Source: a virus
Strand: one strand, 5' to 3'
Virus record (IMG/VR): IMGVR_UViG_3300029448_000257
Location: 1-30,194 of that record
DNA: 30,194 nt
Shown: positions 2,695-27,697 of the stretch, in pieces
Layout: every line of letters starts with the position of its first letter
Numbering within the stretch: the stretch's first letter is position 1
Notes under the pieces: generated by a model
Seen by the model: only the letters and a program-made list of their open reading frames with translations
What the model was told of the DNA's origin: nothing
The model's database searches: none
Translations under genes and position numbers: made by a program

Positions 2695-2956
2695 ATTGCT
2701 CCTCAATTATATCTACCAAAATATCACCTATAAGATTCATAAAATCATCTCCAAAGTCCTCTTTCGGTACTGCATTATTATCTACGATATCAAATTCAAA
2801 TTTAAATGGCATATTACCATCTTTTGTTTCTTCACCTAGTGAAACATTTCCATACTTATAAATGACACCAGCAAACTTACCACCCTTGATACCAATACAA
2901 GTTTGGTCTTGTGTTTCACTTTCTACATAAACATATGATTCTTTAATATTAGACAT
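2657..2956 (-). CDS. Hypothetical acidic phage protein, 99 residues
   Basis: Not recognised. It overlaps the upstream oxygenase gene by 8 bases and the downstream gp41 start by 38 bases, so it is embedded in the replication operon and is likely translated by coupling. The first half looks beta-rich (YVYVESETQ, GIKGGKFAGVIYKYG). The second half is strongly acidic (EDFGDDFMNLIGDILVDIIEEQ) and could form an amphipathic helix. There is no metal or nucleotide motif and no membrane segment. Position next to gp41 hints at a replication accessory role, which is only a guess. Confidence 0.7.
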   Translation of the reverse strand: MSNIKESYVYVESETQDQTCIGIKGGKFAGVIYKYGNVSLGEETKDGNMPFKFEFDIVDNNAVPKEDFGDDFMNLIGDILVDIIEEQYAEPDNRKDNSN

Positions 2957-3494
2957 AGTGTAAATAAGTTTGCATTATATATTTTGGTTCATTTATTGGT
3001 TTTGTTCCAGCATGTAACCAAGGCCACAATGGTGGGAACATTAACATACTACCTTTTTTACACTCAGCATATTTGTCTAGTTGTGGAAAAGTAGTTTTAC
3101 CTTCTTCATTATCTGAAAGATAAATAAAGAAAACTAAAAACCTAGTAGATGTTGGTTTTGAATTTACATCTACATGTGGTTTAAATTCATCATGGTCGTT
3201 TGGCATATATCTTTTCAAACGAATAGGCTCCCAGATATATTTATTTGGCATTTGTTGTGGGGTAACACCTGTGTCTTTTAAGTAAGTTAAAAGAGATGAT
3301 TCAAAAATACTTGTAAATTGTTCTATCTCTTTACTCCATATCTGAGGTGATTTTGCCATATTCAATTGTGTAAATACCATTCCTCTAACATCAAATGATT
3401 CGTGTTGTGTTTCAAACTGTTCAAATTTATCTATAACATTCTTGCAAGTTTGACTATCAAGTACATTATCATATGTTTTAATTAAATTATCCAT
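2949..3494 (-). CDS. 2OG-Fe(II) oxygenase, prolyl-4-hydroxylase type
   Basis: A predicted 2-oxoglutarate- and Fe(II)-dependent dioxygenase (181 residues). The metal triad is visible: H107-V-D109 in FKPHVDVNS, distal H161 in WLHAGTKP, and K171 in PKYIMQTYL as the likely 2-oxoglutarate binder, the usual lysine of prolyl 4-hydroxylases. The jelly-roll strands RFLVFFIYLSD and GSMLMFPPLWPW lie between and fit the family. Substrate is unknown; P4H relatives hydroxylate proline in proteins, but phage members are uncharacterised. The start overlaps the end of the next-upstream oxygenase (3487-4017) by 8 bases. These are two different subfamilies side by side, not a recent duplication. Confidence 0.88.
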   Translation of the reverse strand: MDNLIKTYDNVLDSQTCKNVIDKFEQFETQHESFDVRGMVFTQLNMAKSPQIWSKEIEQFTSIFESSLLTYLKDTGVTPQQMPNKYIWEPIRLKRYMPNDHDEFKPHVDVNSKPTSTRFLVFFIYLSDNEEGKTTFPQLDKYAECKKGSMLMFPPLWPWLHAGTKPINEPKYIMQTYLHYV

Positions 3495-4017
3495 TTCTTA
3501 TTGTCCAATCTATTGCTATTCTTTTTTTGTCTGTCATAATATCCTCTGCTTTGTGTGGTAGTCTAGGATTGAAAACTATAAAATCGCCAGGCATTAACTT
3601 GTGTGTAATTCCATTGTGTATGAATCCACCACCATCACTATCTTGCCAGTCTGAATTTAATATCCCTAATACCTTAATGATTGGTGTATCTTGCAGTTCA
3701 TCTTTTTCATGGTCTGTATGCAGATTATCTTCTCTATGTTTATCTTTCATAGAGATACCACAAAACAAAAGGTCTAGGGGAACATCAACATTACTTTGTT
3801 TTGCTTTCTCATGAATCATCATTAACAAACTCATAGATACACCAGCCAAAAAATCATCATGTATAGTTGTGCCTTGTATGACATCAATCTTTGCATGTTT
3901 ATCTTCAAATGGTTTACCCATTGGATAATTAAAATTCCACTTAGTAGATTTCGTAACTTGATGTTTAATGAAATCTAAAAATAATGGTGTACAACAATTC
4001 TTAACTATCGTTGCCAT
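3487..4017 (-). CDS. 2OG-Fe(II) oxygenase, short phage type
   Basis: A 176-residue predicted Fe(II)/2-oxoglutarate oxygenase. H100-T-D102 (NLHTDHE) and distal H155 (LPHKAED) form the facial triad, and R166 (KKRIAIDW) is placed to bind the 2-oxoglutarate carboxylate. The GGGFIHNG strand and the [13 protein letters not shown] turn are typical of the double-stranded beta helix. It is one of nine such genes in the window. It overlaps the end of uvsX by 17 bases and the start of the next oxygenase by 8 bases, so it is part of the gp43-uvsX-gp41 operon. Substrate unknown. Confidence 0.88.
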
Positions 4018-5023: not shown

Positions 5024-5204
5024 TATTATCTCCTGTTTCCCTAGTATTTTTTAAATTTAAATCATCAAACATATTTTCATTTGGTTTTGAATCAGAAAAT
5101 GGTAAAGGATTTTCTTTTTTCTTTTTGAATATCCTATCCCAATTATCTTCAAAAGTTTTTTCATCAACTTCTCTCGGTCTTCTTTTATCTCCTTTTCCTG
5201 CCAT
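5016..5204 (-). CDS. Small conserved phage protein ([10 protein letters not shown] type), 62 residues
   Basis: A short, charged protein with the opening [13 protein letters not shown] and the segment [13 protein letters not shown]. This pattern (GKGxxRRP followed by a NWDxIF helix) is widespread as a small hypothetical protein in many phages. Function is not known to me. It is squeezed between gp43 and uvsX: its ATG abuts the gp43 stop (sharing one base) and its end overlaps uvsX by 8 bases. The basic patch and the location suggest a nucleic-acid or replisome accessory role, unproven. Confidence 0.8.
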
Positions 5205-7699
5205 TAGAAAAACCCCTCTAGTGTTCCTTGTGTTCCATAACTATCATCTATCTGCCACTTTATAATATTAGTAATAAATTTTAAAGGTTCTACAAAAGAC
5301 TTTTCAAACTGCATATCATAATCAATAAAATTATGTAAGTTTAATTCATTAGGCAACTTAGTCATAAATGATATAGAAGTTGATTGATAGACATTTGGTG
5401 TTTTCATATGTAAGAACTTAATCTTATCACCTTCTTGTATATATGGATATTTACCCTGTAATTTTTTATCTTGCAAAAGGTGATTATACAGTATCGCACC
5501 TTTACAATGTATCGGTGCTCCTTTCTTAAATAGATTATGTGATTCAGTCCACTTGTTTAATCCATTTACAGAACGAGGATATGCAATCAACTCTGGTTTC
5601 AAATCCATAAAGTCTTTTCTAAAATCTTGTATAAAACTATTTAACTCTTGATTATCTTTAGTCATAATAATAGTTAATGCTTCTTTAATCTTTTCACGAC
5701 ATGCAGCTGGTGTAGATGACTTGACTGCCTCAACACCCATGATTTTTAATTTAGGTTCTTTATAACGAACACCTTCAACATCATGTGCATTTAAAATATA
5801 TCTTTTCTTTGCAACCCAAATACCTTTGTCTGCAATCACTTCTCTTTTCATTTGCATCTTTTGTTCATACGCATTTACATACTCAGCGAGGTCTTGATAA
5901 CTTTTATCAATAAAAGGTTCAATTTTCTCTTTAGCAACTCTGTCCAAAAACTCCACGATTTTATTGTCGTCTGTGTCTGATACGAAGACTTTGCTAACCA
6001 ACTTATCAAATGTGATATAGACCGAATCCGTATCACTCGCAATGATGTAGTCCTCTCCTCTGGTATTAAGTATTTTATTAAGATACTGATTAAGACTATG
6101 TTCAATATAGCGAATAGCAAGTTGCCCACTTGTAGTAATCGCTTCGGCAACCAAAATATTGTAATACCTAAACCATACATTACCGATAGCACCATATGCA
6201 CTATTGAGAGAAATCTTTTTAGCCATCTGGATATTATTGAACTTAGATATATCCCTAAGTAGTTTTGGGTCTTTTGTTTTTTCATAATCTTTTTGTGCCT
6301 CAATCATTAATTGTTTGAACTTAACTCTATCATCATACATCTTTTGCATAAGTTCTGGTAAGAAACCTTTTTGTGTTGTTTTAAACAAAGCACCATTTGG
6401 TGTCATTGTTGCATCTTTTAATATTGATGTATCCACTTCTTTATTTAACATCTTTTCAACTGACATATTTTTAACTGCTTTATCTGCAACTAATGTTTCT
6501 GGTGAAATATTATATTGCATAATTAGATGTGGATACAAAGAGTTTAAATCAAATGACATTACCCACTTATGTAATCCTACGATTGGGTCTTTGACATATG
6601 CACCTTCAAACTTTTCACTCTTTTCTCTTTGAATCTTTTGTGGTATAACAATATTCTTTTTTCTTAGTTCATTGTAAATAAGTATATCCCAATACTTAAC
6701 TGAACCAAGCACATCCATATAATTAACTTTTGCATCATAAGCCATAGTTAGACACAACTCAATCAATCTCATTTTATCTTCTAGTCTATCAACAATCTCC
6801 ACATCTTGTATGTTATAATCAATAAACGATTGAAAGTCTTTTAGATACCATTCTCTAAATGTTTCATATGGATTGTCATCTTTACTCTCACCGAGTTCAA
6901 CATGTGCTATATGGTCAAGTCTGTAACTCTCACGATTGGTATAGGTAAACTTCCTATACAAATCATAATAATCTAAATGTGATACACCGAGTATATCATA
7001 AACTTGTTGTTTTTTACCCATCTTGTAAACTTGTCTATCTGATACATTGCCCCAAGGCGAAAGTCTATTAATTTCTTTTGCATCATATAAATTTTTAATA
7101 CGATTACAGATATATGGTATATCAAAAAACTCTGTATTCCAACCTGTAATAATGTCTGGTTGATTCTTTTCCCAAAAAGTTAAAAACTCTTGGATTAACA
7201 TTTTTTCTGAATCACATTTTACATAAGTTACATCATCTCTTGTATTGTTATAATCACCTATACCCCAAACTAATATTTGTTTGTTTTGATGATTCTTAAT
7301 TGTAATTGATAGTAATGGTTCTATTGCTTCTTCTGGATTTGGGAATCCATTTTCACACGCAACTTCTATATCAATTGTTACTACAAGAATTTTATCTATA
7401 TCCCATTTTACATAAGTAGGATATTCATCTGCAATATAATTATATTGAAATGTAGTATTACCAAAAATTAAATGTGGTTGGTCTTCATAAGACTTTAACC
7501 ATTCTTTTGCTTCTTTGATTGTATCGTGTTTTACAGGTGTAACGAATTGTCCATCAAGGGTCTTGTGTTTAGTTTCTTTGATGACCTTACAGAATAGGGT
7601 AGGCGAATACTTGACTTTACGATTAAGTCTTTCACCATTCACATATTCCCTGACAAGCAAGGTGTTGCCCCAAGGCGTTACATTCGTATAAAATTGCAT
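5204..7699 (-). CDS. gp43: DNA polymerase gp43 (family B)
   Basis: The replicative polymerase with 3'-5' proofreading. Exonuclease motifs: Exo I DIE at 110-112, Exo II GWNTEFFDIPY at 186-196, Exo III YNIQDVEIV at 295-303. Polymerase motifs: A SFDLNSLYP at 382-390, B KISLNSAYGAIGN at 495-507, C DTDS at 556-559. The C-terminus ends GTLEGFF, a plausible clamp-binding tail that would dock on gp45. Length 831 is typical for marine T4-like phages (T4 gp43 is 898). All catalytic residues look intact. The start lies only six bases after the -10 box of a consensus sigma-70 promoter and has no Shine-Dalgarno, so its mRNA may be leaderless. It heads the operon that ends at gp41. Confidence 0.97.
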   Translation of the reverse strand: MQFYTNVTPWGNTLLVREYVNGERLNRKVKYSPTLFCKVIKETKHKTLDGQFVTPVKHDTIKEAKEWLKSYEDQPHLIFGNTTFQYNYIADEYPTYVKWDIDKILVVTIDIEVACENGFPNPEEAIEPLLSITIKNHQNKQILVWGIGDYNNTRDDVTYVKCDSEKMLIQEFLTFWEKNQPDIITGWNTEFFDIPYICNRIKNLYDAKEINRLSPWGNVSDRQVYKMGKKQQVYDILGVSHLDYYDLYRKFTYTNRESYRLDHIAHVELGESKDDNPYETFREWYLKDFQSFIDYNIQDVEIVDRLEDKMRLIELCLTMAYDAKVNYMDVLGSVKYWDILIYNELRKKNIVIPQKIQREKSEKFEGAYVKDPIVGLHKWVMSFDLNSLYPHLIMQYNISPETLVADKAVKNMSVEKMLNKEVDTSILKDATMTPNGALFKTTQKGFLPELMQKMYDDRVKFKQLMIEAQKDYEKTKDPKLLRDISKFNNIQMAKKISLNSAYGAIGNVWFRYYNILVAEAITTSGQLAIRYIEHSLNQYLNKILNTRGEDYIIASDTDSVYITFDKLVSKVFVSDTDDNKIVEFLDRVAKEKIEPFIDKSYQDLAEYVNAYEQKMQMKREVIADKGIWVAKKRYILNAHDVEGVRYKEPKLKIMGVEAVKSSTPAACREKIKEALTIIMTKDNQELNSFIQDFRKDFMDLKPELIAYPRSVNGLNKWTESHNLFKKGAPIHCKGAILYNHLLQDKKLQGKYPYIQEGDKIKFLHMKTPNVYQSTSISFMTKLPNELNLHNFIDYDMQFEKSFVEPLKFITNIIKWQIDDSYGTQGTLEGFF

Positions 7700-7740: not shown

Positions 7741-7953
7741 TTATGTTAATAAATCTGGTTGATTACCATAGTGTTTATTCAATGTGTTTAACTTATCTTC
7801 GGCATCGGCAAGTTTAACCATCTCTGTATCAACTGCTTGAACTAGGTCTGGGTGTTCACCAATACCAGCAGGGTTTCTATTATAAACATCTATGTTAGCT
7901 TTGGCAGCAGCAATCTCTGCCTCATATTTTTTTCTTAGTGCATCAATTATCAT
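7741..7953 (-). CDS. Small conserved phage protein, 70 residues, helical
   Basis: A 70-residue protein, largely alpha-helical by composition (LRKKYEAEIAAAKANI and VQAVDTEMVKLADAEDKLNTL), with a central NPAGIGEHPD turn. Such a helical hairpin looks like a short coiled coil. I recall similar conserved hypotheticals in ocean T4-like phages but no function. It overlaps the ATP-grasp/retropepsin gene by an ATGA junction, so it is co-translated with it and could be its partner or substrate (inference). It is the last gene before the gp43 promoter. Confidence 0.8.
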   Translation of the reverse strand: MIIDALRKKYEAEIAAAKANIDVYNRNPAGIGEHPDLVQAVDTEMVKLADAEDKLNTLNKHYGNQPDLLT

Positions 7954-9365
7954 TTCGGTGTCCTATAGTCTTCATCATTGTTATCCCCTCTTTCTATATA
8001 ACTAGAAAGAACAAATTTTCTATCTGGGTTTACTGCAACTTTAAATCTAGTTAACAGTTCCCTGTTTATCAAAAATGTACTTCTAGAATCTCTTGTGGTT
8101 AATCCTATTGGCACATCTTTATAAAGTGTGTTGTTAAACTTAATATCTACTAATACGATTGGTCTTTTGTCTATTGTATCTACATGTACAGGATGAGATA
8201 CTCCAATTATATTATTAGTAAATTTCTTACCATCTCTTTCCCATTTAGCAATCTTACCTTTTATTTCTAATTTGTCTACATGAAACATAGATGCTTTAGT
8301 TCCATTTCCTGTATCAAACTTAGCACGATATGGGCCAAGACCTACTATATCTAATCTTTCTACAAATCCAGCAGTTTGTGTAGAACCCACAAATCTACTT
8401 TTCACTTTTCCAACATGGTCTAATACTTTTTCAATTAATCTTTCATTGGTTGTTGTTTTACCATTACCATTTCCAAAGTTAGAACCAATTCCAGGCGAAC
8501 CATTACATTCTAAAATGTATGCTTTACCATCTACGATTGTGTGGTCTACACCAACCATATATGCACCTGTTGTTCTATATGCATCTAGTATTAATTTTTT
8601 TTCATCATCTGATAATACATATGGTTCTGAATCAGCACCTCTATGTATATTAGACCTAAAATCTTCTTTTGGTTTTATTCTTTTTGTGGAAGCTATGATT
8701 ACACCATCAACAACAATAGTCCTAATATCAAAATCCATTTCTAAAAATTCTTGTATCAATAAGTCTGCGTTGAACTTCCATAGTGATTGTATGACAGATA
8801 TCATACTTTTATAATCATTTACGATTGATACACCAATACCTTGTGTACCTGTAATGGTTTTTACGATTACAGGAAACTTGCCACCTATTCTTTTATGTGC
8901 ATCTTGTACAGATTCTTCGTTGTTAATAATAGATGTTTTAGGTGTTCGTATTCCATTTTGATTAAATGTAATATAGGTTGACATTTTATTATCACAAGTT
9001 AACATACCATCACGATTGTTAATCATAAATGCACCTGCCTTCTCAAAAGTAGAAAGTAATGCAAGTCCCACTTCATCATCTAAAACTCCAGCACGAACAA
9101 ATACAACTGTTTTAGGTATCTCAAAATCTACTTTATTACCTTCTTTATCTGATATACTTATTAAACCTTTCTCTATATCATTTGTAGATACCCACGCCTT
9201 TTTTGTATTAACTATATGACAAGGTATTTTATTTTTGTCTGCGTATTCTTTTATTTGATTAGAAACAATCTCTTTCTCTTTAGATGATACTTTAGTTAAG
9301 ATGGCGATTTGTATATCACCATCATTCACATTTTCTTCTGTGATGAATGACTGAAAGTTTTTCAT
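7950..9365 (-). CDS. RimK-like ATP-grasp ligase fused to a RimB-like retropepsin domain
   Basis: A two-domain protein of 471 residues. Residues about 125-315 are an ATP-grasp ligase close to RimK: KFPVIVKTITGTQGIGV (163-179, nucleotide-binding loop), IQEFLEMDFDIR, DFRSNIHRG (235-243) and the metal site ECNGSPG (286-292). RimK adds glutamates to the C-terminus of ribosomal protein S6. Residues about 333-457 match the RimB-type retropepsin family once called ATP-dependent zinc protease: active-site DTG at 351-353, then TKASMFHVDKLEI, and STFLINRELLTRF near the end. RimB removes glutamate tails made by RimK in Pseudomonas. A fusion of the two in a phage would be a writer and eraser of peptide tails in one chain. 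It starts three bases after the IscU stop and overlaps the 70-residue gene. Substrate unknown. Confidence 0.88.
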   Translation of the reverse strand: MKNFQSFITEENVNDGDIQIAILTKVSSKEKEIVSNQIKEYADKNKIPCHIVNTKKAWVSTNDIEKGLISISDKEGNKVDFEIPKTVVFVRAGVLDDEVGLALLSTFEKAGAFMINNRDGMLTCDNKMSTYITFNQNGIRTPKTSIINNEESVQDAHKRIGGKFPVIVKTITGTQGIGVSIVNDYKSMISVIQSLWKFNADLLIQEFLEMDFDIRTIVVDGVIIASTKRIKPKEDFRSNIHRGADSEPYVLSDDEKKLILDAYRTTGAYMVGVDHTIVDGKAYILECNGSPGIGSNFGNGNGKTTTNERLIEKVLDHVGKVKSRFVGSTQTAGFVERLDIVGLGPYRAKFDTGNGTKASMFHVDKLEIKGKIAKWERDGKKFTNNIIGVSHPVHVDTIDKRPIVLVDIKFNNTLYKDVPIGLTTRDSRSTFLINRELLTRFKVAVNPDRKFVLSSYIERGDNNDEDYRTPK

Positions 9366-9368
9366 AAT

Positions 9369-9773
9369 TTACTCTGGTTGCCATTTACCCATTGTTTCTT
9401 GTTTACCTTTATAGTCAGCGATTGCACTTTTAATTGCATCTTCTGCTAAGACTGAACAATGGATTTTTACAGGTGGTAGTGCAAGTTCATTTGCAATATC
9501 ACTATTTTTAATTTTTTCTACTTCTTCTACAGTTTGACCTCGCACCCATTCGGTCAATAAACTTGATGATGCGATTGCAGAACCACAACCATAAGTTTTA
9601 AATTTTGCATCTGTTATAATACCATCATCATCAACTTGAATTTGAAGTTTCATAACATCACCACATGCAGGCGCTCCCACCATACCTGTGCCGACATTTG
9701 GGTCATCTTTATCAAGTGAACCTACATTTCTAGGATTCTCATAATGGTCTAAAACTTTATCTGAATATGCCAT
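9369..9773 (-). CDS. iscU: IscU/NifU-type Fe-S cluster scaffold
   Basis: A complete IscU scaffold (134 residues; E. coli IscU is 128). The cluster ligands C37, D39, C63, H105 and C106 are present at the same numbers as in E. coli IscU: GAPACGDVM, YGCGSAIASS and KIHCSVLAEDA. The HscA chaperone recognition motif LPPVK is at 99-103. It should therefore accept sulfur from host IscS and pass clusters through host HscA/HscB, supporting iron proteins during infection. No phage cysteine desulfurase is in the window. The gene starts on the last base of the regA stop and is followed by the ATP-grasp fusion; it sits in the operon with gp45, gp44, gp62 and three oxygenases. IscU/NifU scaffolds are known in some marine phages. 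Confidence 0.95.
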   Translation of the reverse strand: MAYSDKVLDHYENPRNVGSLDKDDPNVGTGMVGAPACGDVMKLQIQVDDDGIITDAKFKTYGCGSAIASSSLLTEWVRGQTVEEVEKIKNSDIANELALPPVKIHCSVLAEDAIKSAIADYKGKQETMGKWQPE

Positions 9774-10183
9774 TACTCTACCTCTTTCTTTTTCCCTATG
9801 TTATATTTAGTTTCCAACAACCAATCATCTTTCTCTTTGAAAGAAATAATTTTAATTTGACTTAATGGTGCGATAGGTTCTGGTGTAGCTTTCATCTCTA
9901 CCAATCCCCAATCACTTAGAAGTTTAACTATTGTGTTTCTTCTTGCAATATCATTTTCTGACAAGTTGGTGTCTTTACCATCAAGTGCAAATAATTCTTT
10001 GAAGTGAACAATATAATACTTACCCTGTTTATGAAGTATATGGCAAGATTGATATAACTTTTTTTCTTTTCGTGAAGCAACTCCGATACGAGATAATGTT
10101 TCTCTTATCTTGAGAAAGTCATCTGGTTCTTTTAGTAGAACCTCAAACATCTGCTCCTGTTTCCAATTTACATTATTTTCCAT
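9773..10183 (-). CDS. regA: RegA, translational repressor
   Basis: RegA binds the start regions of early phage mRNAs and blocks their translation. The match to T4 RegA is clear over the whole length: DDFLKIRETLSRIGVA, LYQSCHILHKQGKYYIVHFKELF, ARRNTIVKLLSDWGLVE and the end KIISFKEKDDWLLETKYNIG. The frame opens with a GTG at 10192, but AAGGTGG followed by five bases places the start at ATG 10183 (MENNVNWKQ), giving 136 residues against 122 in T4. The gp62-regA order is the same as in T4 (44-62-regA-43), but here iscU, the ATP-grasp fusion and a small gene separate regA from gp43. The C-terminus has an added lysine-rich tail (KKKEVE). Confidence 0.95.
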   Translation of the reverse strand: MENNVNWKQEQMFEVLLKEPDDFLKIRETLSRIGVASRKEKKLYQSCHILHKQGKYYIVHFKELFALDGKDTNLSENDIARRNTIVKLLSDWGLVEMKATPEPIAPLSQIKIISFKEKDDWLLETKYNIGKKKEVE

Positions 10184-10565
10184 GTTTACCACCTTTATTC
10201 AAACTATCCTTTATAGTTTTTATTTGTTCATTATTCAGTATATTAAGAGCAGATTTAGCTTTCTCATTACCATATCCATAATACTCTTTTACACATTCTA
10301 AATCTTTTTCCTTCTTTGCTTTGAGCCAAGGCGTGTATCTGTTCCTTGTTCTTAGAGTATTTAGTAAAAAATCAAACTGTAATTTCTTATCTATCTGATG
10401 ATTCATATTCATCTCATTGACTAGGAATATAGTATCTTGAAAGGGTGCTAGACACTTATTTACAATGTATGCTGGATACTTCTTTTCCCATTGTTCATCT
10501 TCACTATCCATAAGTCTTTCTTTGGAAGTATTAATTGCTTTCAGATATTCTTTTAGTTCATACAT
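10173..10565 (-). CDS. gp62: Clamp loader small subunit gp62
   Basis: gp62 joins four gp44 subunits in the complex that loads the gp45 sliding clamp. The protein (130 residues) matches marine-phage gp62: EQWEKKYPAYIVNKCLAPFQDTIFLVNEMN, DKKLQFDFLLNTLR and VKEYYGYGNEKAKSALNIL. It is shorter than T4 gp62 (187), which is usual outside the close T4 relatives. It overlaps the preceding oxygenase by 8 bases and the regA start by 11 bases. An oxygenase gene separates it from gp44, breaking the usual adjacent 44-62 pair. Confidence 0.92.
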   Translation of the reverse strand: MYELKEYLKAINTSKERLMDSEDEQWEKKYPAYIVNKCLAPFQDTIFLVNEMNMNHQIDKKLQFDFLLNTLRTRNRYTPWLKAKKEKDLECVKEYYGYGNEKAKSALNILNNEQIKTIKDSLNKGGKHGK

Positions 10566-11280
10566 TATCTAATCTCACATATGGGATACTATCTTCATAA
10601 TTAGTTTCATTATATAAATTTACACTATCACCAGCAATCTGTATTCCATTGACTTTATCAAATGCTTTATATGACATATTAAATGCAATACTTCTTCTTT
10701 CACCAAAACCTTGAAATGGATATACTTGATGATACAAAGAATTTGGAAAAAGTAATAAAGTTCCAACTTTTGGATTTACCACAAAAGAACCTGTAGTAAA
10801 AATACTATCAGTATTACAAAAAGTAAATTCTATCTTACCATCTAAATTACTTTTACCAACTATATTTCTAGGTGTCATAGATGGTATCTTTAAATATAAC
10901 ACAGCACTTATTTGACAATTAGAATGATTATGTTGTGGGTTATATTCATTTTCATATTGTGATACTGACCAGATAGACCTCATTTGAGTTGTAATGTTTA
11001 CAGCATCATGTAAATCTTTTTTACCAGCATTTAAATAAGCTTGTGTTACATAACTTTTACCTACTGTATGAAGAACACTCATAACATTTTTTTGTTCTAA
11101 CATAGAGTGTGGTATTTCACTTTCAGATTTAATCTGACCAGCAAGTCTAGAACCCATATCTTTTTTATCTTTAATCACATCAACTATTTCGTTAAGTGAT
11201 TTAACAACAGTTTCTGGTAACTCTGCCATCATTACCAAAGGCCCAAATGGTTTTACTAATTTTACATTACTTATTTCCAT
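10558..11280 (-). CDS. 2OG-Fe(II) oxygenase-like protein (HxH type) between gp44 and gp62
   Basis: A 240-residue protein of the putative 2OG-Fe(II) oxygenase class, paralogous to the genes at 12910 and 13683. Shared features: LAGQI near residue 46, YNPQHNHSN with H117 and H119, YLKIP, distal H184 in LYHQVYPF, and ERRSIAFN (R195/R196) for the co-substrate. The first metal pair reads HxH, with no acidic residue in the usual HxD position. The ATG at 11280 has GAGGTGAA upstream and lies inside the gp44 end. Its insertion between the two clamp-loader genes keeps overlaps on both sides, so it shares their mRNA. Substrate unknown. Confidence 0.85.
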   Translation of the reverse strand: MEISNVKLVKPFGPLVMMAELPETVVKSLNEIVDVIKDKKDMGSRLAGQIKSESEIPHSMLEQKNVMSVLHTVGKSYVTQAYLNAGKKDLHDAVNITTQMRSIWSVSQYENEYNPQHNHSNCQISAVLYLKIPSMTPRNIVGKSNLDGKIEFTFCNTDSIFTTGSFVVNPKVGTLLLFPNSLYHQVYPFQGFGERRSIAFNMSYKAFDKVNGIQIAGDSVNLYNETNYEDSIPYVRLDNV

Positions 11281-12909: not shown

Positions 12910-13686
12910 TTACGATTTTATTTCTTTTGTTAATGTTGGTGATTTAAATTGTGCGATAGTTTCTTTACTATCTGTAATATTAAAGTTAGCAGACATTGTT
13001 CTTCGTTCACCATCACCAAAGAATGGCATGACACAATGTTGTAACCAATTAGGAAATATTATACAAAATCCTTTTTTAGGTTTTATATATTCCTGTGCAT
13101 CTAACTTTAATCTATAAACATCATTGATTGTGTTCGTTGATGTTATTAAACCTGTAAAACCATCAATGTCGCCAGATGCATTATGCAATGATGGAAATGA
13201 TGGTTTATCTTCAATACATTTTGGTACTTTTAAATACATTATCATAGATAACCCAGATGGTGTTTGACAACCATGTGCATGTAAAGGATTATAATCTCCA
13301 GCATAACTATGCACAGTCCAAGCTTCAAATGCTGATGCAATACTATCACGACTATATCCAATTTTATCTTTTAATAAACTAGTCGCACAATTATCTACTA
13401 CAGTCTTAAAATCTTTTCCCATTTTACTATCTAAAGGGAAAGTCCATTGAGCAGATTTTTCGTTCTGATTAATTTGTCCAACTAACTGACTTTCATGTGA
13501 TACATTACTTGGTATAATTACATTATCAATATGGTCATTTATATCATCTACAAATTCATCTGGAAACTGTATTGCCAATAATTTATAAGCAGGAATAGTT
13601 TTTATCTGTGCTTTAGTATCAAAAGTTTTTGGTTCTTGTTTAACTTGTTGACTACCTAAAGAACTTGAAAGGTCTTTCAAGCTCAT
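12910..13686 (-). CDS. 2OG-Fe(II) oxygenase-like protein (HxH type), tandem copy 2
   Basis: A 258-residue paralogue of its upstream neighbour (13683-14702). Shared blocks: VIIPSNV, QLVGQINQ, AQWTFP, YNPLHAHG (H136, H138), TPSGLSMIMYLKVPKCI, FPNWLQHCVMPFFGDGERRT (distal H217, R228/R229). The pattern fits the TIGR02466/2OG-FeII_Oxy_5 class of putative oxygenases. The first metal pair is HxH. The gene is joined to its neighbour by an ATGA overlap and precedes gp45 by 10 bases. The N-terminal 30 residues form a low-complexity polar tail not shared with the third paralogue. Substrate unknown. Confidence 0.85.
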   Translation of the reverse strand: MSLKDLSSSLGSQQVKQEPKTFDTKAQIKTIPAYKLLAIQFPDEFVDDINDHIDNVIIPSNVSHESQLVGQINQNEKSAQWTFPLDSKMGKDFKTVVDNCATSLLKDKIGYSRDSIASAFEAWTVHSYAGDYNPLHAHGCQTPSGLSMIMYLKVPKCIEDKPSFPSLHNASGDIDGFTGLITSTNTINDVYRLKLDAQEYIKPKKGFCIIFPNWLQHCVMPFFGDGERRTMSANFNITDSKETIAQFKSPTLTKEIKS

Positions 13687-14702
13687 GACCTATCCTTTCT
13701 ATAATGGTCGCCAGTTAATTTATCTTTTAAATTAATATTAATGTTTGCAGAGAATGTTCTTCTTTCATCATCTTGCACATCACTAAAGAATGGCATAACA
13801 CCATGTCTTAACCAACTAGGGAACATAATCAATGTACCAACTTCTGGTTTTATATATTCCTCTGTAATAGGTCGTAACATATTTATATCTCTCATTCCAT
13901 TTACACCCCATTGTAAATATGTAAATCCATCTACATTACCAGATGATTCATTTAGTCCACCAAATTCTTCTGATGGGTTTCCTAATCTTGCAATACATCT
14001 AGGAACTTTTAAATAGTAAATACAAGATACACCCATTGGTGTTCTAGTGCCGTGGTCGTGTACAGGATTGTAATCACCATTGTAACTATGTACAGTCCAC
14101 ATACTTTCCATTGAGGTTTCACACTCAATACCAATTGACCTGTCAACAAATTCTTTGGCAAGTCTTTGTAACACACCACTAAACATTTCACCAACTTCAT
14201 CACCTTCATGTGGGAAAGTTAATTGAGCTGACCTTTCGTGTTGTGATATTTGTCCAACTAAACCTTTTGAATGGTCAACATTGTTTGGTATGACTACACT
14301 ATCAATGTGTTCGTTTATTTCTGTGGTAACTTCAGCAGGAAACTGACAACGCATCATATTGACTGCAACTTTTGGTCGCATTGCAATTTGAATTCCGCCA
14401 GGATTTTCTGGTAGTTTTTCACCTGTGTCTGTTTGTTGTTTGTTTGAAACTTCATTTTGAGCATTTATCATATCTGCTCTTTTCACTTGTTTTACATCAT
14501 CACTCATATTATTCTCACTTTGTTTTTTTTGTAGTTCGTTTGCTTCTTGCAACGCTTGATTATAATCTTCAATGGTAAAAGGTTTACCCTCACCTAACTC
14601 ACTTGGTCTAATGACTTCGGTTTTGCCTGTTTCAGAATTAAATCTATCAATACCACCGACACCGATATCTACATCACCATCAATCTTTATATCATCAGTC
14701 AT
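13683..14702 (-). CDS. 2OG-Fe(II) oxygenase-like protein (HxH type), tandem copy 1 with N-terminal extension
   Basis: A 339-residue protein. The last 230 residues are a putative 2OG-Fe(II) oxygenase like its tandem neighbour: SVVIPNNV, GLVGQISQHERSAQLTFP, YNPVHDHGTRTP (H215, H217), YLKVPRCIA, FPSWLRHGVMPFF (distal H300), ERRTFSANI (R314/R315). The first 105 residues are an extra polar extension (acidic start DIKIDGDVDIGVGG, then a helical Q/E/N-rich stretch) with no recognised domain; it might bind a partner. GGAG lies nine bases before the ATG, and a sigma-70 promoter lies just upstream, so this is the first gene of the clamp-clamp loader-RegA-IscU operon. Being first suggests early and abundant synthesis. 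Confidence 0.85.
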   Translation of the reverse strand: MTDDIKIDGDVDIGVGGIDRFNSETGKTEVIRPSELGEGKPFTIEDYNQALQEANELQKKQSENNMSDDVKQVKRADMINAQNEVSNKQQTDTGEKLPENPGGIQIAMRPKVAVNMMRCQFPAEVTTEINEHIDSVVIPNNVDHSKGLVGQISQHERSAQLTFPHEGDEVGEMFSGVLQRLAKEFVDRSIGIECETSMESMWTVHSYNGDYNPVHDHGTRTPMGVSCIYYLKVPRCIARLGNPSEEFGGLNESSGNVDGFTYLQWGVNGMRDINMLRPITEEYIKPEVGTLIMFPSWLRHGVMPFFSDVQDDERRTFSANININLKDKLTGDHYRKDRS

Positions 14703-15365: not shown

Positions 15366-16580
15366 TTAGTAGTTTACAGGATTCTCAACTATATCTTCAT
15401 CATCTTCATAGTCATTATCACTAGATAGATTCTGAATATCTTCACCAGCGTCTATCTTAGTGTATAAGTCTATGAATGAATCCTTAGTATCATCATCAAA
15501 TCTTGATACACACAACTCAATTGATTTCATTTTATCTTTGAAGATTGAGTGTGCCTTAACAATGTGGTCAAGTCTTCTAGTAGAAATGATTTCATCAACT
15601 CCACCATCATAGAATGTTTTTCTAATAACTTCTGCCCAAACTGTTAAGTTTTCTGCAAACTTTTCATCCATGTTACCATACTTAGTCATACTACCGAGAA
15701 TAATTTTTTTCTCAACACTAGAACTAGGATATGGTTGTTCAATTGTAACAGCGAATCTTTCTAAGAACGCCTCGTTAAGAACATTAGTACCAACAAATCT
15801 GCCGTCATCAGAACCTTGACCTTTAGTGTTTGCAGTTGCAATCACATTGAAACCTGGCTTTGGTGTAACCCACTTGTTAATCTTTTTAAGGAAAACACCT
15901 TTACCTTCTAGAACAGGTTGTAATGCAAGTAACTTGTTAGAACCTAAATCACATTCGTCTAACAATAAAGTACAACCTCTTTCCATTGCCTGAATAACAG
16001 GACCTGGCACAAACTTAGTTTCACCATTAATCAATCTGAAACCACCTAGTAAATCATCTTCATCTGTTTCAATGGTAATGTTTACTCTAATCAATTCTCT
16101 TTTTAATTGAGCGTGTAATTCTTCAACCATTAATGTTTTACCATTTCCAGATAACCCTGTAATAAAAACAGGATAAAACATTTTAGATTGAATTACTTTT
16201 TTGATTGTAGGACAATGACCCCACGAAACAAATCCCTCAAAATGACTAGGAATTAAATTTTGTGTTTCAGTATTTGCCATAAGATTGACTACTGCCTCTT
16301 TTGGTTCATTATCTGTCTTAACAGTTTTTGTTACTACAGTTTTTTTAGTCTTAGCGACTTTAGTAGTTTTTGTAGAACCACTATTTGGTAATTGATATTT
16401 ACCATAACCAACTTTTTCAAAACCACTCTGACCTAAAAATCTTGTCATCGCCCCTGCCGAAGCAACAGGTTCTAACACACCTTTAGAATCTAAGCAGTTT
16501 ATGATTTCTTTTCTGGTAAGAATGGCGTCTTTACCAAACTCCTCAGAAAGAATCATAATTAACTCATTTTTTGTTTCCAT
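15366..16580 (-). CDS. cobS: CobS-like (MoxR-type) AAA+ ATPase
   Basis: A 404-residue AAA+ ATPase of the type annotated CobS in T4-like cyanophages. Walker A GLSGNGKT is at 142-149, Walker B LLLDE at 205-209, and the sensor-1 stretch NVIATANTKGQGSDDGRF follows, all as in the MoxR/CobS group. Residues 1-65 form a small helical domain (LTRKEIINCLDSKGV, MTRFLGQSGF) like a winged helix, then a Lys/Thr-rich linker. True CobS inserts cobalt in B12 synthesis together with CobN and CobT. No CobN is here, and the partner next door carries protease-like and VWA features, so a MoxR-VWA remodelling machine is at least as likely. GAGG precedes the ATG. It has its own promoter and terminator. The C-terminus is acidic. 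Confidence 0.9.
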   Translation of the reverse strand: METKNELIMILSEEFGKDAILTRKEIINCLDSKGVLEPVASAGAMTRFLGQSGFEKVGYGKYQLPNSGSTKTTKVAKTKKTVVTKTVKTDNEPKEAVVNLMANTETQNLIPSHFEGFVSWGHCPTIKKVIQSKMFYPVFITGLSGNGKTLMVEELHAQLKRELIRVNITIETDEDDLLGGFRLINGETKFVPGPVIQAMERGCTLLLDECDLGSNKLLALQPVLEGKGVFLKKINKWVTPKPGFNVIATANTKGQGSDDGRFVGTNVLNEAFLERFAVTIEQPYPSSSVEKKIILGSMTKYGNMDEKFAENLTVWAEVIRKTFYDGGVDEIISTRRLDHIVKAHSIFKDKMKSIELCVSRFDDDTKDSFIDLYTKIDAGEDIQNLSSDNDYEDDEDIVENPVNY

Positions 16581-16660: not shown

Positions 16661-16690
16661 AGGAATGATTCTCATTAAGCAATCATTCCT
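16661..16690 (-). terminator. Hairpin spanning the CobT stop codon
   Basis: A perfect 10-bp inverted repeat, AGGAATGATT and AATCATTCCT, with a 10-base loop that contains the TAA stop of the CobT-like gene. It is followed by AT-rich sequence without a clean T-run. It may be a weak terminator or protect the 3' end of the mRNA. Confidence 0.55.
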
Positions 16691-19014
16691 ATGAATTTAT
16701 TGAGCAATGGTCTTTGGTTTTTTCTACCAGAAGTCATTTTTCCAAATGCTCTTTTTAATTCACCTTTCTTTGCACCGACTTGAACATCTGATAAATCCTC
16801 TGTAGATGTATCAAGTTTAACACCACCTGGCAGAACATACATCTCAGTCCAAGCTTGGTTAGTAACTACTGCAACATTTTTTGTTCTCAATTCTTTTTGT
16901 ATCTTTTTAATTTTTTCGTGGTCATTCCAATTAATATCAAAAATTGCTTCAATATCTGCTTTTGGAATAGTTCCTTTTCTATTTTTACCAGCAATAAAAA
17001 AGTTTACTACATTCATTCCTGGCACTCTATTCTTTAAAAATTCTATCAGTACAGGTGTTTGTGTACTATAAAGAAACTTCTTACTCCTACTGTATTCACC
17101 TTTTTTATTTTCACCTTGCCAAACTTTTTTAGTAACAGGGTCTGTAAGTTTTGTTATAACACTATCGTCATAACCAAAATCTTTATACATATCTTCTCTT
17201 TGAACTCCTTCTTCAATTAAATCACCATACATATCTTTATGTTGTTTTCTAAAAGTATATTTGTCGTTTAGTGAGTTACTATATCCATCTGTTAAAAATA
17301 CTGTATGAACTTTTTGTAATCCATTATCTTTTTTAAATTTTGGCATTATATCCATAGCAGCAATAATAGAATGATTCAATGGTGTACTATTTAATGAATA
17401 ATTTTCTTGTGGATATATTTCTGTTCCAACTTTTTCTCTTTCTTCCCAACTGTATCTTCTATTATAACTATCATAGTAATTAGCGATTAAATATAGATTA
17501 TTTAATCCATTAATCATTTCTTTTTTGTTTGCCCTACTTGATAACATATTAATTAATGTTAATTCATTTATTATTATGTCATTATGTTTTCTATCTTGTA
17601 TGAATAAGTTTTTGTTGGTATCATCTCTCCTACCATATCCATTTGTAAATCCATAAACTTCAAAAGGAATATTTACTCTCTCACAAAACCAAACTAAATT
17701 TAAAGCTTGTTTGATTGTGTTCTTAAAGTTATCTGACATAGAACCACTCCAATCTATAAACATAACTAAACCATGATTTGTAGCACTAGGTTCAACATTC
17801 ATTTTTAAGAATATGTCTTCATTGTAAGCATAACTATGTAGTTTATCCATATTTAAACTACCTGTTTTTGATACTGTACTTCTTTTGTATAAGTCAGCTG
17901 ACTTTTTCATTTCAAATTCTTTTACCATATATGATATGGTTGCTTTTTGGTCATTCTTATATTTAGCAAGGTCTTTTTTATTCCACTCAATATGCTTTGC
18001 ATAATCTGGGGAAAGTTTTGCTTTTTTAAGATAATGTTCATTTAATTCAGCATTGATTTCTTTATAATCTACAATAGCATTTTTTAAATTAACTTTTGGA
18101 ATATTAAGATAATTAATCCCTGTAGCATTTTTATCTACTGCCTCATATTGTTTTTTCTGATAGTTATTATCAGTTGTAGCTTGAATACTTTCATCATCAT
18201 TACCCTCAGCACCTTTAGAGAAACCTTTTTGTTCTGTTTCTTCTGTAGGTTTTTTATCTGCTTCTACTTGTTCAGATGATGTGTTATTACCTTTTGGTGT
18301 TTCATCTTCTTTTTCTTCTACATCTATTTCAATGTCAGCAGATTTTTGTTCTGTATTATCTTCTTTATTATCATCTTCTGTTTTTTCATCTGATGGCATA
18401 TTAATTTGTACTACAAATTCTTCGTCTGATTCATTTTCTTTTTCTGAATCTTTCATATAATCTTGCATTTCAACAGCAAGATTTACAACATCATCTGATG
18501 TTTTTGTTTGATTAGCTTTTTTAACCCACTCTAATTCATCATCATCAAAAGGTACATTCGGTACATTTTTGTAATGCATATTAATTCTATCTATTAGATT
18601 AAGTTTTGATAAGTCTTTGTCTTTAACACCAAAGAAATCTTTTGAGATTAACTCTTTATATGCTTTCTTAAATACTTTTCTAGAACCTAGATATTTGTCT
18701 TGAATCATTTTCTCAATTCTAACATCTTCTAAAACATTTAAGAAAGAATGTGATACTTTTTTTTCTTTACCTTTTTCCATTAAATCCATAGGTGTATATA
18801 AAGCGTGCCCAACTTCGTGAAGCGACATCATATCCATAACATCTTCTGATTTGTCTTTCCATATTGGTAAAGTAACTTCTCTTGTTTCAACATTGAAACT
18901 AGCAGTAGGAACACTTTGATAAGATACAGTAACATCTTCCTCAGCCAATAATTTGACTAAAGTAGATTTATCTTTCATAGTTTCTAATTTAATATTATTT
19001 GAATGTCTTCTCAT
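16675..19014 (-). CDS. cobT: CobT-like protein: HExxH metallopeptidase-like region plus VWA domain
   Basis: A 779-residue protein annotated CobT-like by analogy. Near the N-terminus it has LHEVGHALYT, an HExxH zinc motif at about 66-70, followed by LNVLEDVRIEKM (about 92-103), where such families place a third ligand. A long acidic low-complexity linker covers about 190-285. The C-terminal half is a von Willebrand A domain with MIDAS motif DWSGSMS (about 421-427) and FLTDGYSNS. VWA proteins of this class pair with a MoxR/CobS AAA+ ATPase, which is the next gene. The frame also opens at ATG 19026, but AGAGGG just before the ATG at 19014 favours the latter. It has its own sigma-70 promoter. Confidence 0.88.
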   Translation of the reverse strand: MRRHSNNIKLETMKDKSTLVKLLAEEDVTVSYQSVPTASFNVETREVTLPIWKDKSEDVMDMMSLHEVGHALYTPMDLMEKGKEKKVSHSFLNVLEDVRIEKMIQDKYLGSRKVFKKAYKELISKDFFGVKDKDLSKLNLIDRINMHYKNVPNVPFDDDELEWVKKANQTKTSDDVVNLAVEMQDYMKDSEKENESDEEFVVQINMPSDEKTEDDNKEDNTEQKSADIEIDVEEKEDETPKGNNTSSEQVEADKKPTEETEQKGFSKGAEGNDDESIQATTDNNYQKKQYEAVDKNATGINYLNIPKVNLKNAIVDYKEINAELNEHYLKKAKLSPDYAKHIEWNKKDLAKYKNDQKATISYMVKEFEMKKSADLYKRSTVSKTGSLNMDKLHSYAYNEDIFLKMNVEPSATNHGLVMFIDWSGSMSDNFKNTIKQALNLVWFCERVNIPFEVYGFTNGYGRRDDTNKNLFIQDRKHNDIIINELTLINMLSSRANKKEMINGLNNLYLIANYYDSYNRRYSWEEREKVGTEIYPQENYSLNSTPLNHSIIAAMDIMPKFKKDNGLQKVHTVFLTDGYSNSLNDKYTFRKQHKDMYGDLIEEGVQREDMYKDFGYDDSVITKLTDPVTKKVWQGENKKGEYSRSKKFLYSTQTPVLIEFLKNRVPGMNVVNFFIAGKNRKGTIPKADIEAIFDINWNDHEKIKKIQKELRTKNVAVVTNQAWTEMYVLPGGVKLDTSTEDLSDVQVGAKKGELKRAFGKMTSGRKNQRPLLNKFIGMIA

Positions 19015-19040
19015 AATCCCTCTCATTTGATTATGTAACC

Positions 19041-19102: not shown

Positions 19103-19122
19103 AAATTAGTTTGGACTAATTT
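19103..19122 (-). terminator. Hairpin spanning the deformylase stop codon
   Basis: An 8-bp perfect stem AAATTAGT/ACTAATTT with a CCAA loop on the minus strand contains the end of the deformylase gene. It is AT-rich and followed by ACTTTTC, so it is a weak terminator at best. It closes the gp55-to-deformylase unit just before the CobT promoter. Confidence 0.45.
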
Positions 19123-19624
19123 TGAGTTTTTTGACTGTTTTATTGAGTTTTTTCATCGCTCTTTCTATTTTTAACCTAGAAACTTTTTGAGTAAAATCAG
19201 TACCTTGCATATGGTCATACTCATGTTGAAAGATTCTAGATGTTAATCCTTGAAATTCTCTTTCGTGTTTCTCACCTTTTTCATCTTCAAACTCAACCTT
19301 GATTGCAATTGGTCTTTTTACTTTAAGCCACACGCCAGGATAAGTTAAGCAACCTTCATCTATTAATATTTCTTCTTTAGATGTTTCTACTATCTTAGGA
19401 TTAAAACAAGTAAGTATTTTTCTAGTGTTAACATCTTCATACATAATGAAAACTCTTTCTGCAATACCTATTTGATTGGCAGATAAACCAACACCTTGAT
19501 AGTGTTCCATAGAATCTATTAAATCTTGTCTAACCTTTTCTCTATCACAATTATCACTCACAGATTCCATAGTTGTTCGTAATAGTATATTGTTTGGTTC
19601 TAATAATTTTGATACTTCACTCAT
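19106..19624 (-). CDS. def: Peptide deformylase
   Basis: Removes the N-formyl group from new proteins. All three catalytic motifs are present: GVGLSANQ (44-51), EGCLTYPG (90-97, metal ligand C92) and QHEYDH (133-138, ligands H134 and H138 with catalytic E135). Length 172 is near the bacterial norm (about 168), and it keeps a C-terminal basic helix that many cyanophage deformylases lack. Marine phages are known to carry active deformylases. It overlaps the membrane protein gene by 8 bases and is the last gene of the gp55 unit. Confidence 0.95.
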   Translation of the reverse strand: MSEVSKLLEPNNILLRTTMESVSDNCDREKVRQDLIDSMEHYQGVGLSANQIGIAERVFIMYEDVNTRKILTCFNPKIVETSKEEILIDEGCLTYPGVWLKVKRPIAIKVEFEDEKGEKHEREFQGLTSRIFQHEYDHMQGTDFTQKVSRLKIERAMKKLNKTVKKLKISPN

Positions 19625-25090: not shown

Positions 25091-25669
25091 TTATACTCCT
25101 TTAAATATTTTGATTACTTCATCTATGGATAAACTTGAATGTATACAAATAAGAATTCTATTATCTTTATCCTTTGTAACACTATGTAATATATTTGTAT
25201 TTACAATATATACATCACCTATTTCTGCTACAAAAGAACAAATATCCTCAACATCAGTAAAATCAATAAACTCTGATTTACTATCTTTATTGTATTCCCC
25301 ACCAAATCTACCAATTACATTTTTTATATCTTTAACATCATCTGATTTCTTTTTATGAAATGTTGTCCTTCCACCATTCACTTTAACATAGATGTTTATA
25401 CTACTATTTATGTTATCATCAATATGTGGATACACAGTATGATTAGCAAACATATATGATTGATTAAAATACTTTTTTTTATTTTCAGGTATGATATTGA
25501 GTAAGTTGTCAAAACTTTGTTTAGATTTTCTATCTTGGATAAAAAATTTACCATATTCAACACCTATAAATTTTCCATTTTCCTCAACACCATAACTATC
25601 ATAAACCTTACCTTTTATAATATTTATATTAGGCATTTTTATATTTAATTTTTTATAATACTCTATCAT
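25091..25669 (-). CDS. Divergent 2OG-Fe(II) oxygenase-like protein
   Basis: A 192-residue, lysine- and asparagine-rich protein with the oxygenase skeleton: H82-I-D84 (VYPHIDDN), strand INIYVKVNGGRTTFH, EIGDVYIVNTNILHSV with distal H162, and R171 (DNRILICIHSS) as co-substrate arginine. The spacing fits the jelly-roll fold, so activity is plausible. The N-terminal 75 residues (NIIPENKKKYF) have no recognised domain. It starts within the uvsW stop (ATGA). Composition is more AT-biased than its neighbours. Substrate unknown. Confidence 0.75.
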   Translation of the reverse strand: MIEYYKKLNIKMPNINIIKGKVYDSYGVEENGKFIGVEYGKFFIQDRKSKQSFDNLLNIIPENKKKYFNQSYMFANHTVYPHIDDNINSSINIYVKVNGGRTTFHKKKSDDVKDIKNVIGRFGGEYNKDSKSEFIDFTDVEDICSFVAEIGDVYIVNTNILHSVTKDKDNRILICIHSSLSIDEVIKIFKGV

Positions 25670-27153
25670 AATCTAACCTTATCAATTTCGTAATCAAATT
25701 CTTCTTCATTATAAATGTTTATTCTTTCTAAAAAGTGATTAAGTGTAAAATTCTTTCTATCATTATAGGTAAAGTCATCAGCAATATCTAAAAGGGTTGT
25801 GTGTACCTCACCCATATTCGGTCTACGCAATCCACGACCAATGGATTGTAACACTCTAATTCTACTTTTACTTGGACTTGCGAACACGACATTGTGCAAG
25901 TTCCTAATATTAATGCCAGTGCTAAATGTACCATAAGACGCCACGATAATTGCATTTGTTTCTTTCTCTGTGATTTCTCTTATCTGTTCTCTTGTTTCTG
26001 TATCTGTTCCACCATGTATAAAAAATACTTTTCTATCAAAGTCTTTCATTGCGTTATATAACCCTACGCCGTGTTTTTCCACTAGTTGATACAAACAGAG
26101 GGTGTTACCCCTCAACTTATCGCAAAGTCTTGTTATAAACTGATTACGAGTGTTGTGAGCCACTATATACTGTAACTCCTCGCTATATTTTAAATCTTTT
26201 ACTACTTTACAGTCTTCTTGTTTATGCTTTAAAACAATACACTTAATTTTTAAATTAGCAAGTGTATCTTTGTCCATCAATTCTTTTGTGGTTGTTACCT
26301 TTTCAACTTTACCAAACAATCCTTCTAAAACTAATCTATGGGTTTGTGTACCATCTAAAGTTCCTGTCATACCAAAACGATATTTACAATCTATCAGTTT
26401 TGTCATAATCGTGGTTAACGACTTTGATTTAAATAGATGAGCTTCATCTCCTACGACACATCCAAACTTTTCAAAATACTTTTTATCTAATTTAAAAAGT
26501 GATTGCCAAGTAGAAATAATTACAGGTTTATTTGTTTCCTTTTCATGACCTTGATATATTCTATGCAAGTATTTATCACTCCAACCATAGTCAATAAAAT
26601 CAGAATACATCTGTTCTACTAATGATGTGGTTGGCACAAGTATTAATATCTTTTTATCTTTGAGTAGGTAGTGATAAAATCTTATAAGTGCATATATGAT
26701 AAGTGATTTTCCACTTGCAGTTGGTGATACCAACATACCTCTATGATTACTTAACGCATATTGTATTGCATTAAGTTGATAATCTCTAACCTCTAATATT
26801 TTTCCTTTTGATTTTGGTTTTAAAGATTTTACAAAGTCTGATACTTTTTTGATATCTAAAATATCTGTATCGTTTACATCATCAGCAATAACACAATGTA
26901 TATTATTCCTTTCACAAAATTCTTTGATGTATGATAAAAGACCAACATAGATTTGACCTGTCTTTTGTGAAAACAATCTTATTTTACCATCCCACATTTT
27001 ATTTCTATACGCTGGCATAAATTTGTGGCCTGGCACTTCAAAAGTAAAATACTGAACTAACTCATGACAGATACCAGAGTTATCACATTCAATGTGCAAG
27101 TAAACTTCATTTAATTTAAATACTTGAATTTTGTAATGTGTTTGGTTGTCCAT
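25666..27153 (-). CDS. uvsW: UvsW, DEAH-type recombination helicase
   Basis: A superfamily 2 helicase of 495 residues (T4 UvsW: 503) that unwinds R-loops and branched DNA and helps switch phage replication from origin-dependent to recombination-dependent mode. The N-terminal domain (1-110) ends at the Q-motif-like RDYQLNAI. Motor motifs: PTASGKS (144-150), GDEAH (235-239), GMTGTL (261-266) and QSIGRGLRRP (about 438-447). In T4 uvsW is late-expressed; here too it lies downstream of late promoters. The start overlaps the preceding oxygenase by 38 bases. Confidence 0.95.
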   Translation of the reverse strand: MDNQTHYKIQVFKLNEVYLHIECDNSGICHELVQYFTFEVPGHKFMPAYRNKMWDGKIRLFSQKTGQIYVGLLSYIKEFCERNNIHCVIADDVNDTDILDIKKVSDFVKSLKPKSKGKILEVRDYQLNAIQYALSNHRGMLVSPTASGKSLIIYALIRFYHYLLKDKKILILVPTTSLVEQMYSDFIDYGWSDKYLHRIYQGHEKETNKPVIISTWQSLFKLDKKYFEKFGCVVGDEAHLFKSKSLTTIMTKLIDCKYRFGMTGTLDGTQTHRLVLEGLFGKVEKVTTTKELMDKDTLANLKIKCIVLKHKQEDCKVVKDLKYSEELQYIVAHNTRNQFITRLCDKLRGNTLCLYQLVEKHGVGLYNAMKDFDRKVFFIHGGTDTETREQIREITEKETNAIIVASYGTFSTGINIRNLHNVVFASPSKSRIRVLQSIGRGLRRPNMGEVHTTLLDIADDFTYNDRKNFTLNHFLERINIYNEEEFDYEIDKVRL

Positions 27154-27697
27154 AGTCGCCCCTTAATATTATATTCCATGAAATACTAATTCTATCTTTT
27201 TGTGTGGTCGGCACCCAATGTTGTAACCAACTTGGGAATATCAATCCTATTCCTTTTTGAGAATCAAATTGCATCATACTTGAATTATCAAATGTGGTAT
27301 ATTCTAAGTTAGGGTGTAACACACTTGCTTGTGGTCGTGGGTCAAAAAATTGTATTGGAGCACCATTTTCTAAATAATATACTCCAGAAAATACATTATT
27401 AGAATGTGTGTGTGGTGGGTGCGAATCACCTTTCTTTAACATGTTTGCCCACATTCCTGTAATCTCTAATGTATCATATAAGTATTTAGATTCTCTACAA
27501 ATCTTCTCTGTTGTTTCAAAAACTTTTGTTTTAAACGAAGGTAACTTTTTATGTAAGTCATCTTTAGTTTGTAGAATACCATTTGTTTTAGATGAGCGTA
27601 ACTCTTTTAAAACAATACCATGTTCTTCACTACTCATATCGTGTTTAAACTCTGATACGACTGTGGGAAATATTTTATGTTGTATTACATCAACCAT
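27116..27697 (-). CDS. 2OG-Fe(II) oxygenase, TIGR02466 type (HxH)
   Basis: A 193-residue protein with the hallmark of the TIGR02466/2OG-FeII_Oxy_5 class: WANMLKKGDSHPPHTHSN, then SGVYYLENG, FFDPRP, and near the end GLIFPSWLQHWVP with DRISISWN. Candidate ligands are H96 and/or H98 and the distal H160; R169 would bind 2-oxoglutarate. The first pair is HxH, which is usual for this class as I recall it. It is more canonical than the three paralogues near gp45/gp44. Overlaps uvsW and the next oxygenase. Substrate unknown. Confidence 0.88.
   Translation of the reverse strand: MVDVIQHKIFPTVVSEFKHDMSSEEHGIVLKELRSSKTNGILQTKDDLHKKLPSFKTKVFETTEKICRESKYLYDTLEITGMWANMLKKGDSHPPHTHSNNVFSGVYYLENGAPIQFFDPRPQASVLHPNLEYTTFDNSSMMQFDSQKGIGLIFPSWLQHWVPTTQKDRISISWNIILRGDYGQPNTLQNSSI

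Follow-up and report, generated by a model that had tools for sequence, protein, structure and literature searches.

The window analysed here is a 30,194-base virus record of IMG/VR (IMGVR_UViG_3300029448_000257) from a T4-like phage; its DNA polymerase most closely resembles the one in Methylophilales phage Melnitz (64%), with cyanophage polymerases next. Beside its replication genes lies an open reading frame (ORF) of 471 residues in which a RimK-type ATP-grasp ligase is followed by a RimB/RloA-type retropepsin and preceded by ten residues resembling a capsid-targeting propeptide of T4. The ORF begins with an ATG, and an in-frame stop immediately upstream makes a longer N-terminus impossible; the existence of hundreds of intact homologues rules out a chance ORF or an annotation artefact. 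On balance, we favour the view that this fusion protein is a bifunctional polyglutamate enzyme, packaged in the phage head and injected together with the DNA.

A first-pass annotation of the window had described a complete RimK-like ATP-grasp domain, and the evidence bears this out. Its motifs GTQGIG, DFRSNIHRG and ECNGSPG are present, and the domain matches both Pfam PF08443 (E 3e-35) and the NCBIfam model for RimK family alpha-L-glutamate ligases (TIGR00768, 151.9 bits, cut-off 143.4). By alignment, the E. coli RimK residues K100, K141, E178, D187, R189, R203, R211, N213, D248, E260 and N262 are all kept in the window, K100, K141, E178, D248, E260 and N262 among them being ATP and metal residues, and the matching residues are identical in the 160 full-length phage homologues that we collected (a set containing a few duplicates of one record). 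Structure prediction, proposed as a check by the same annotation, gave a whole-chain model (mean predicted local distance difference test score, pLDDT, 73) with the RimK fold, which scored Z 27.4 against Pseudomonas RimK and Z 26.8 against the complex of RimK with RpsF. The cut-off of the S6-L-glutamate ligase equivalog PRK10446 was missed by a wide interval (101 vs 331 bits), as were those of MptN, CofF and LysX. Judged by these profiles the protein is a member of the RimK family, with its assignment as an S6 ligase unsupported.

The C-terminal part had been attributed to DTG aspartic proteases of the RimB class, an attribution that profiles and fold both uphold. FDTG and FLINRELL are present; a profile-profile comparison matched bacterial RimB (E 1.9e-10) with DTG aligned on DTG, and the domain profile also matched the solved RloA, RloA2 and Lpg0085 chains (E 2e-6 to 9e-5). 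The window sequence alone does not match Pfam PF05618, for which its homologues in Pelagibacter phage Mosig (EXVC030M) and phage YerA41 score 28.0 and 29.0 bits (cut-off 27). With the whole-protein model the RimK domain filled the match list and no retropepsin row appeared, while the domain folded alone (pLDDT 70) gave retropepsin matches, the best of them 2pma (Z 12.6) and 9g58 (Z 12.2), with retroviral proteases next at Z near 9 (FIV protease 9.1). The DTGN stretch is invariant in 160/160 homologues, with synonymous codon changes. Beyond it the family parts from RimB, in that the DTGA[KR]TSxLH stretch is not matched: the window has DTGNGTKASMFH, the phage versions being 1–2 residues longer with an unconserved basic residue. 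From D to H the spacing is 9 in bacterial RimB (DTGARTSxLH), 10 in the Mosig clade and 11 in the window, so that the first-pass remark of a stretch one residue longer had the right direction and a length true of the Mosig clade, the window being two longer. That His is conserved in just 127 of the 160. The domain is related to RimB without being a RimB in the strict sense.

The N-terminus had been overlooked, and it alters the likely mode of action. MKNFQSFITE aligns in register with the propeptide of the T4 internal protein IPII, MKTYQEFIAE, annotated in GenBank as a 10-residue leader, with F4, F7, I8 and E10 matching the key positions. For T4 IPIII, whose propeptide is identical, residues 4 and 7 are the main determinants of head targeting, and residues 8 and 10 those of gp21 cleavage at its L/I-X-E motif (PMC9026906). 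Among the 160 homologues, position 4 is F in 159, and 157 each have F/Y at position 7, I/L at position 8 and E at position 10, the exceptions to the motif being one contig-edge fragment and two YerA41 copies. These kept positions show synonymous codon changes, and positions 3, 5, 6, 9 and 11–16 are variable. A gp21-type prohead protease is annotated in the relative Mosig; the head genes of the window phage lie outside the stretch. Among 761 proteins of four relatives we saw 4 N-termini in the T4 register against 0.04 expected from shuffled N-termini, a descriptive figure and not a planned test, as the motif was spotted before counting; it suggests that these phages use such tags on a few proteins. 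Conservation of the motif across clades that are only about 30% identical is stronger evidence than this count.

Three further proteins carry capsid-targeting-like N-termini: a 361-residue protein of Melnitz (MQGFKTFLSEAK; L198, 12203–13288), a cytidyltransferase-like protein of cyanophage S-RIM12 (MKKFSAFLTEAEK; L220, 5859–7016; phrog_395/455) and a 151-residue protein of the L018 virus (MKTFKKYIKEAS; L209, 19336–19791). They may be regarded as candidate injected proteins of Kyanoviridae.

Evidence from virions comes from phage YerA41, in which the product of g112, named 'Ribosomal protein modification protein', was marked as found in purified particles by liquid chromatography-tandem mass spectrometry (PMC7354516). 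From gene order (two genes after NrdA, g110) and name we infer that g112 is the fusion homologue YerA41_066, whose GenBank product is 'structural protein'.

The first-pass annotation had also suggested looking for the fusion in marine viral genomes, where it is plentiful: IMG/VR contains relatives of the window protein at 355 loci and of the Mosig protein at 221, forming two clades, and the fusion is common in marine T4-like phages. The YerA41 protein, used as an IMG/VR query, found no relatives, and the only annotated phage records found to hold the fusion were Mosig and two Yersinia ruckeri phages. Across the full-length ORFs collected from phages, RimK precedes the retropepsin. A tree of the RimK domain (30 rows) clusters the window-like, Mosig-like and YerA41 fusions with the RimK-only protein of Melnitz (support 100/98), away from bacterial RimK and from the bacterial hybrids called RimBK; its long branches, that of YerA41 above all, make exact placements unsure. 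The Melnitz protein, which occupies the same locus and has the N-terminal motif without a retropepsin domain, stands beside the Mosig clade (98/97), and Melnitz therefore most likely lost the protease domain. The RimK of cyanophage S-RIM12, annotated as 'S6 glutaminyl transferase', groups with a Pseudoalteromonas protein; it is of separate origin and has neither retropepsin domain nor motif. No stand-alone retropepsin was found in Melnitz or S-RIM12. A scan of genome contigs for cellular fusions, made with short patterns and non-exhaustive, gave a sole match with the same domain order (L166, CALCXY010000050.1), which was rejected as cellular given its neighbours gp62, regA and gene 43. This phage contig, which also holds a DnaJ-like ORF (1244–2149), had been binned into a Woesearchaeota metagenome-assembled genome.

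Fusions of RimK with RimB are not themselves new. Little et al. (2025) described bacterial RimBK hybrids in which RimB is N-terminal and the protease acts on glutamylated S6; they are commonest in two bacterial orders that are largely aquatic. The tested hybrid of Desulfotalea psychrophila cleaved tails, and no S6 glutamylation was seen (PMC11957791). These proteins (D. psychrophila, with homologues in Thioclava and Aureibacter) resemble the phage fusion in uniting a RimB-type retropepsin and a RimK ligase in one chain, but their order is RimB-RimK, as two plasmid-borne examples that we examined show, their RimK parts fall in different clades and they lack the capsid-targeting-like N-terminus. 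Given its place in the tree, the phage fusion would most simply have arisen separately from the bacterial one. What is new is that the fusion occurs in phages, with the domain order reversed, apart from the bacterial hybrids in the tree and with a capsid-targeting-like N-terminus, although an earlier mention is possible in subscription papers or supplements.

Other known systems resemble the fusion in one part or another. Pseudomonas-type operons, seen on plasmids of Salinivibrio, Vibrio and Phaeobacter, place the same two predicted activities side by side, but in two cellular genes, usually with a third that is succinylglutamate desuccinylase/aspartoacylase-like. The nearest solved folds to the C-terminal domain, the periplasmic RloA retropepsins (9g58, 9g59) and Lpg0085 (2pma), of which RloA cuts polyglutamate, are secreted and disulfide-linked and have no ligase fused. 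The T4 internal head proteins IPI-III and Alt share the N-terminal propeptide in the same register and are packaged, trimmed by gp21 and injected; they are otherwise unrelated proteins, Alt being an ADP-ribosyltransferase.

Upstream of the fusion gene lie regA and iscU, and downstream a 70-residue ORF and gene 43. This locus (regA, fusion, gene 43, with small insertions) is common to the window, Mosig and the L166 contig, and Melnitz has RimK alone there. The IscU-type Fe-S cluster scaffold between regA and the fusion gene is placed elsewhere or missing in Mosig and Melnitz. Peptide deformylase, another enzyme working on nascent proteins, is found in the window and in Mosig, and a homologue of ribosomal protein S21 is annotated near the Mosig fusion gene (L195, 9932–10141). 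ORFs resembling 2OG-Fe(II) oxygenases are numerous in the 30 kb, the one at 2949–3494 having been examined by profile. An AAA_5-type ATPase gene adjoins one for a 783-residue protein with a VWA-like DWSGSMS stretch, and the Mosig annotation has a similar pair, an AAA protein and a putative peptidase.

Features of the window discussed in the text, with positions counted from its first base.
Feature	Position	Strand	Remarks
Fusion gene, whole (471 residues)	7950..9365	minus	propeptide-like N-terminus, RimK ATP-grasp ligase, RimB/RloA-type retropepsin
Capsid-targeting-like propeptide, residues 1-10	9336..9365	minus	predicted gp21 cut after E10, before YLEE
RimK-type ATP-grasp ligase domain, residues 18-326	8388..9314	minus	
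RimB/RloA-type retropepsin domain, residues about 334-455	8001..8366	minus	
Predicted catalytic D351-T352-G353	8307..8315	minus	followed by invariant N354; 160/160, synonymous codons
regA, translation repressor	9773..10192	minus	conserved neighbour; PF01818 E 1.2e-42; also in Mosig, Melnitz, L166
Gene 43, DNA polymerase	5204..7699	minus	conserved downstream neighbour
IscU-type Fe-S cluster scaffold	9369-9773		
Peptide deformylase	19106-19624		
AAA_5-type ATPase	15366-16580		
783-residue protein, VWA-like stretch	16675-19026		
2OG-Fe(II) oxygenase-like ORFs	2949-3494, 3487-4017, 10558-11280, 12910-13686, 13683-14702		
2OG-Fe(II) oxygenase-like ORFs, continued	25091-25669, 27116-27697, 27685-28239, 28236-28745		

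In the mechanism that we propose, the ten N-terminal residues would act as a T4-type capsid-targeting propeptide and carry the protein into the prohead core, where a gp21-type prohead protease would cleave after E10; the mature enzyme would then leave the head with the DNA and enter the next host. There the RimK domain would use ATP to extend the C-terminus of a protein with alpha-linked glutamates; the retropepsin domain, dimeric when active, would trim the tails and/or stimulate the RimK domain, as free RimB does. Both activities are predicted from family membership: RimB, which also stimulates RimK, and RloA are polyglutamate-cleaving enzymes (PMC11957791, PMC12239564). The role of the retropepsin may instead be mainly activating. 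For the window phage we infer packaging, with good support, and injection.

Several observations weigh against this reading. The gene sits in the replication cluster, by regA and gene 43, and not among head genes, and no late-promoter-like TATAAATA site was found just upstream of it (elsewhere matches are about as many as A+T content predicts, by our own estimate). Support from virion mass spectrometry comes only from the distant YerA41 homologue and not from the clade of the window; that homologue is without the T4-like motif, and the YerA41 virion list includes NrdA, DNA polymerases and helicases, making carry-over possible (PMC7354516). As to the chemistry, glutamate-contacting basic residues are common to RloA and RimB (PMC12239564), and the K/R after DTGA that makes such a contact in RloA is not kept in the phage family; two other shared Arg positions, R401 (160/160) and R435 (158/160), appear kept by alignment.

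The principal competing explanation is a cytoplasmic auxiliary enzyme, made after infection and never packaged, whose N-terminal motif has another role such as docking to a phage or host partner. Such an enzyme would suit the replication-cluster position of the gene, flanked in several lineages by regA and gene 43, the middle-period expression reported for YerA41 g112 (PMC7354516) and the motif-free RimK of S-RIM12, yet the exact T4 register, the conservation of the targeting and cleavage positions alone, the enrichment of such N-termini above chance and the detection of the YerA41 homologue in virions make it, in our judgement, unlikely. The capsid-targeting evidence would also serve for an enzyme that is packaged in the prohead and whose substrates are head or core proteins of the phage, glutamylated or trimmed during assembly, and not those of the host. 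Retropepsins do frequently serve particle maturation in retroviruses. Nevertheless, ORFs of at least 60 residues in Mosig, the L018 virus and the window contain no run of five Glu, few ORFs of these phages have acidic C-terminal residues, the supply of ATP and glutamate inside a closed head is doubtful, and the YerA41 virion list groups the homologue with proteins thought to be injected; we consider action within the head very unlikely.

A different kind of objection concerns the reaction itself, since the RimK family includes MptN, CofF and LysX, and with neither their cut-offs nor that of the S6 ligase reached, and no ligase target shown for D. psychrophila RimBK, the ligase might add another group or use a small molecule or peptide, the retropepsin being merely regulatory. 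We hold this to be quite unlikely, given that the best family match, above its cut-off, is to RimK alpha-L-glutamate ligases, that the RimK catalytic residues are kept and that the ligase is fused to a protease of a polyglutamate-cutting family.

If the fusion is indeed an injected polyglutamate enzyme, its target is most plausibly a host protein, with ribosomal protein S6 as the leading candidate, which suits the role for which RimK is best known and the translation-related setting (regA, peptide deformylase and, in Mosig, the S21 homologue). RegA, the upstream neighbour, was rejected as a substrate, its C-termini being unconserved and mostly not ending in Glu. The first-pass annotation had envisaged a writer and an eraser in one chain, possibly acting on host ribosomes or on phage proteins; the two-domain anatomy stands, but the ribosomal target is called into question by the missed S6 equivalog and by the failure of D. 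psychrophila RimBK to glutamylate S6. The stronger version, a virion-delivered ribosome editor that alters S6 and translation in the host ahead of all phage gene expression, is a tentative idea and somewhat unlikely; if true, it would be a counterpart of T4 Alt at the level of translation.

Little is known of the internal head proteins of marine T4-like phages, and further injected proteins of these phages could be sought by the capsid-targeting-like N-terminus, a simple sequence handle. A ligase and a retropepsin naturally coupled in a single chain also provide material for studying the control of RimK by RimB. Were packaging confirmed, these very common marine phages would provide a concrete case of a protein-modifying enzyme that is injected, with the host ribosome as a possible target.
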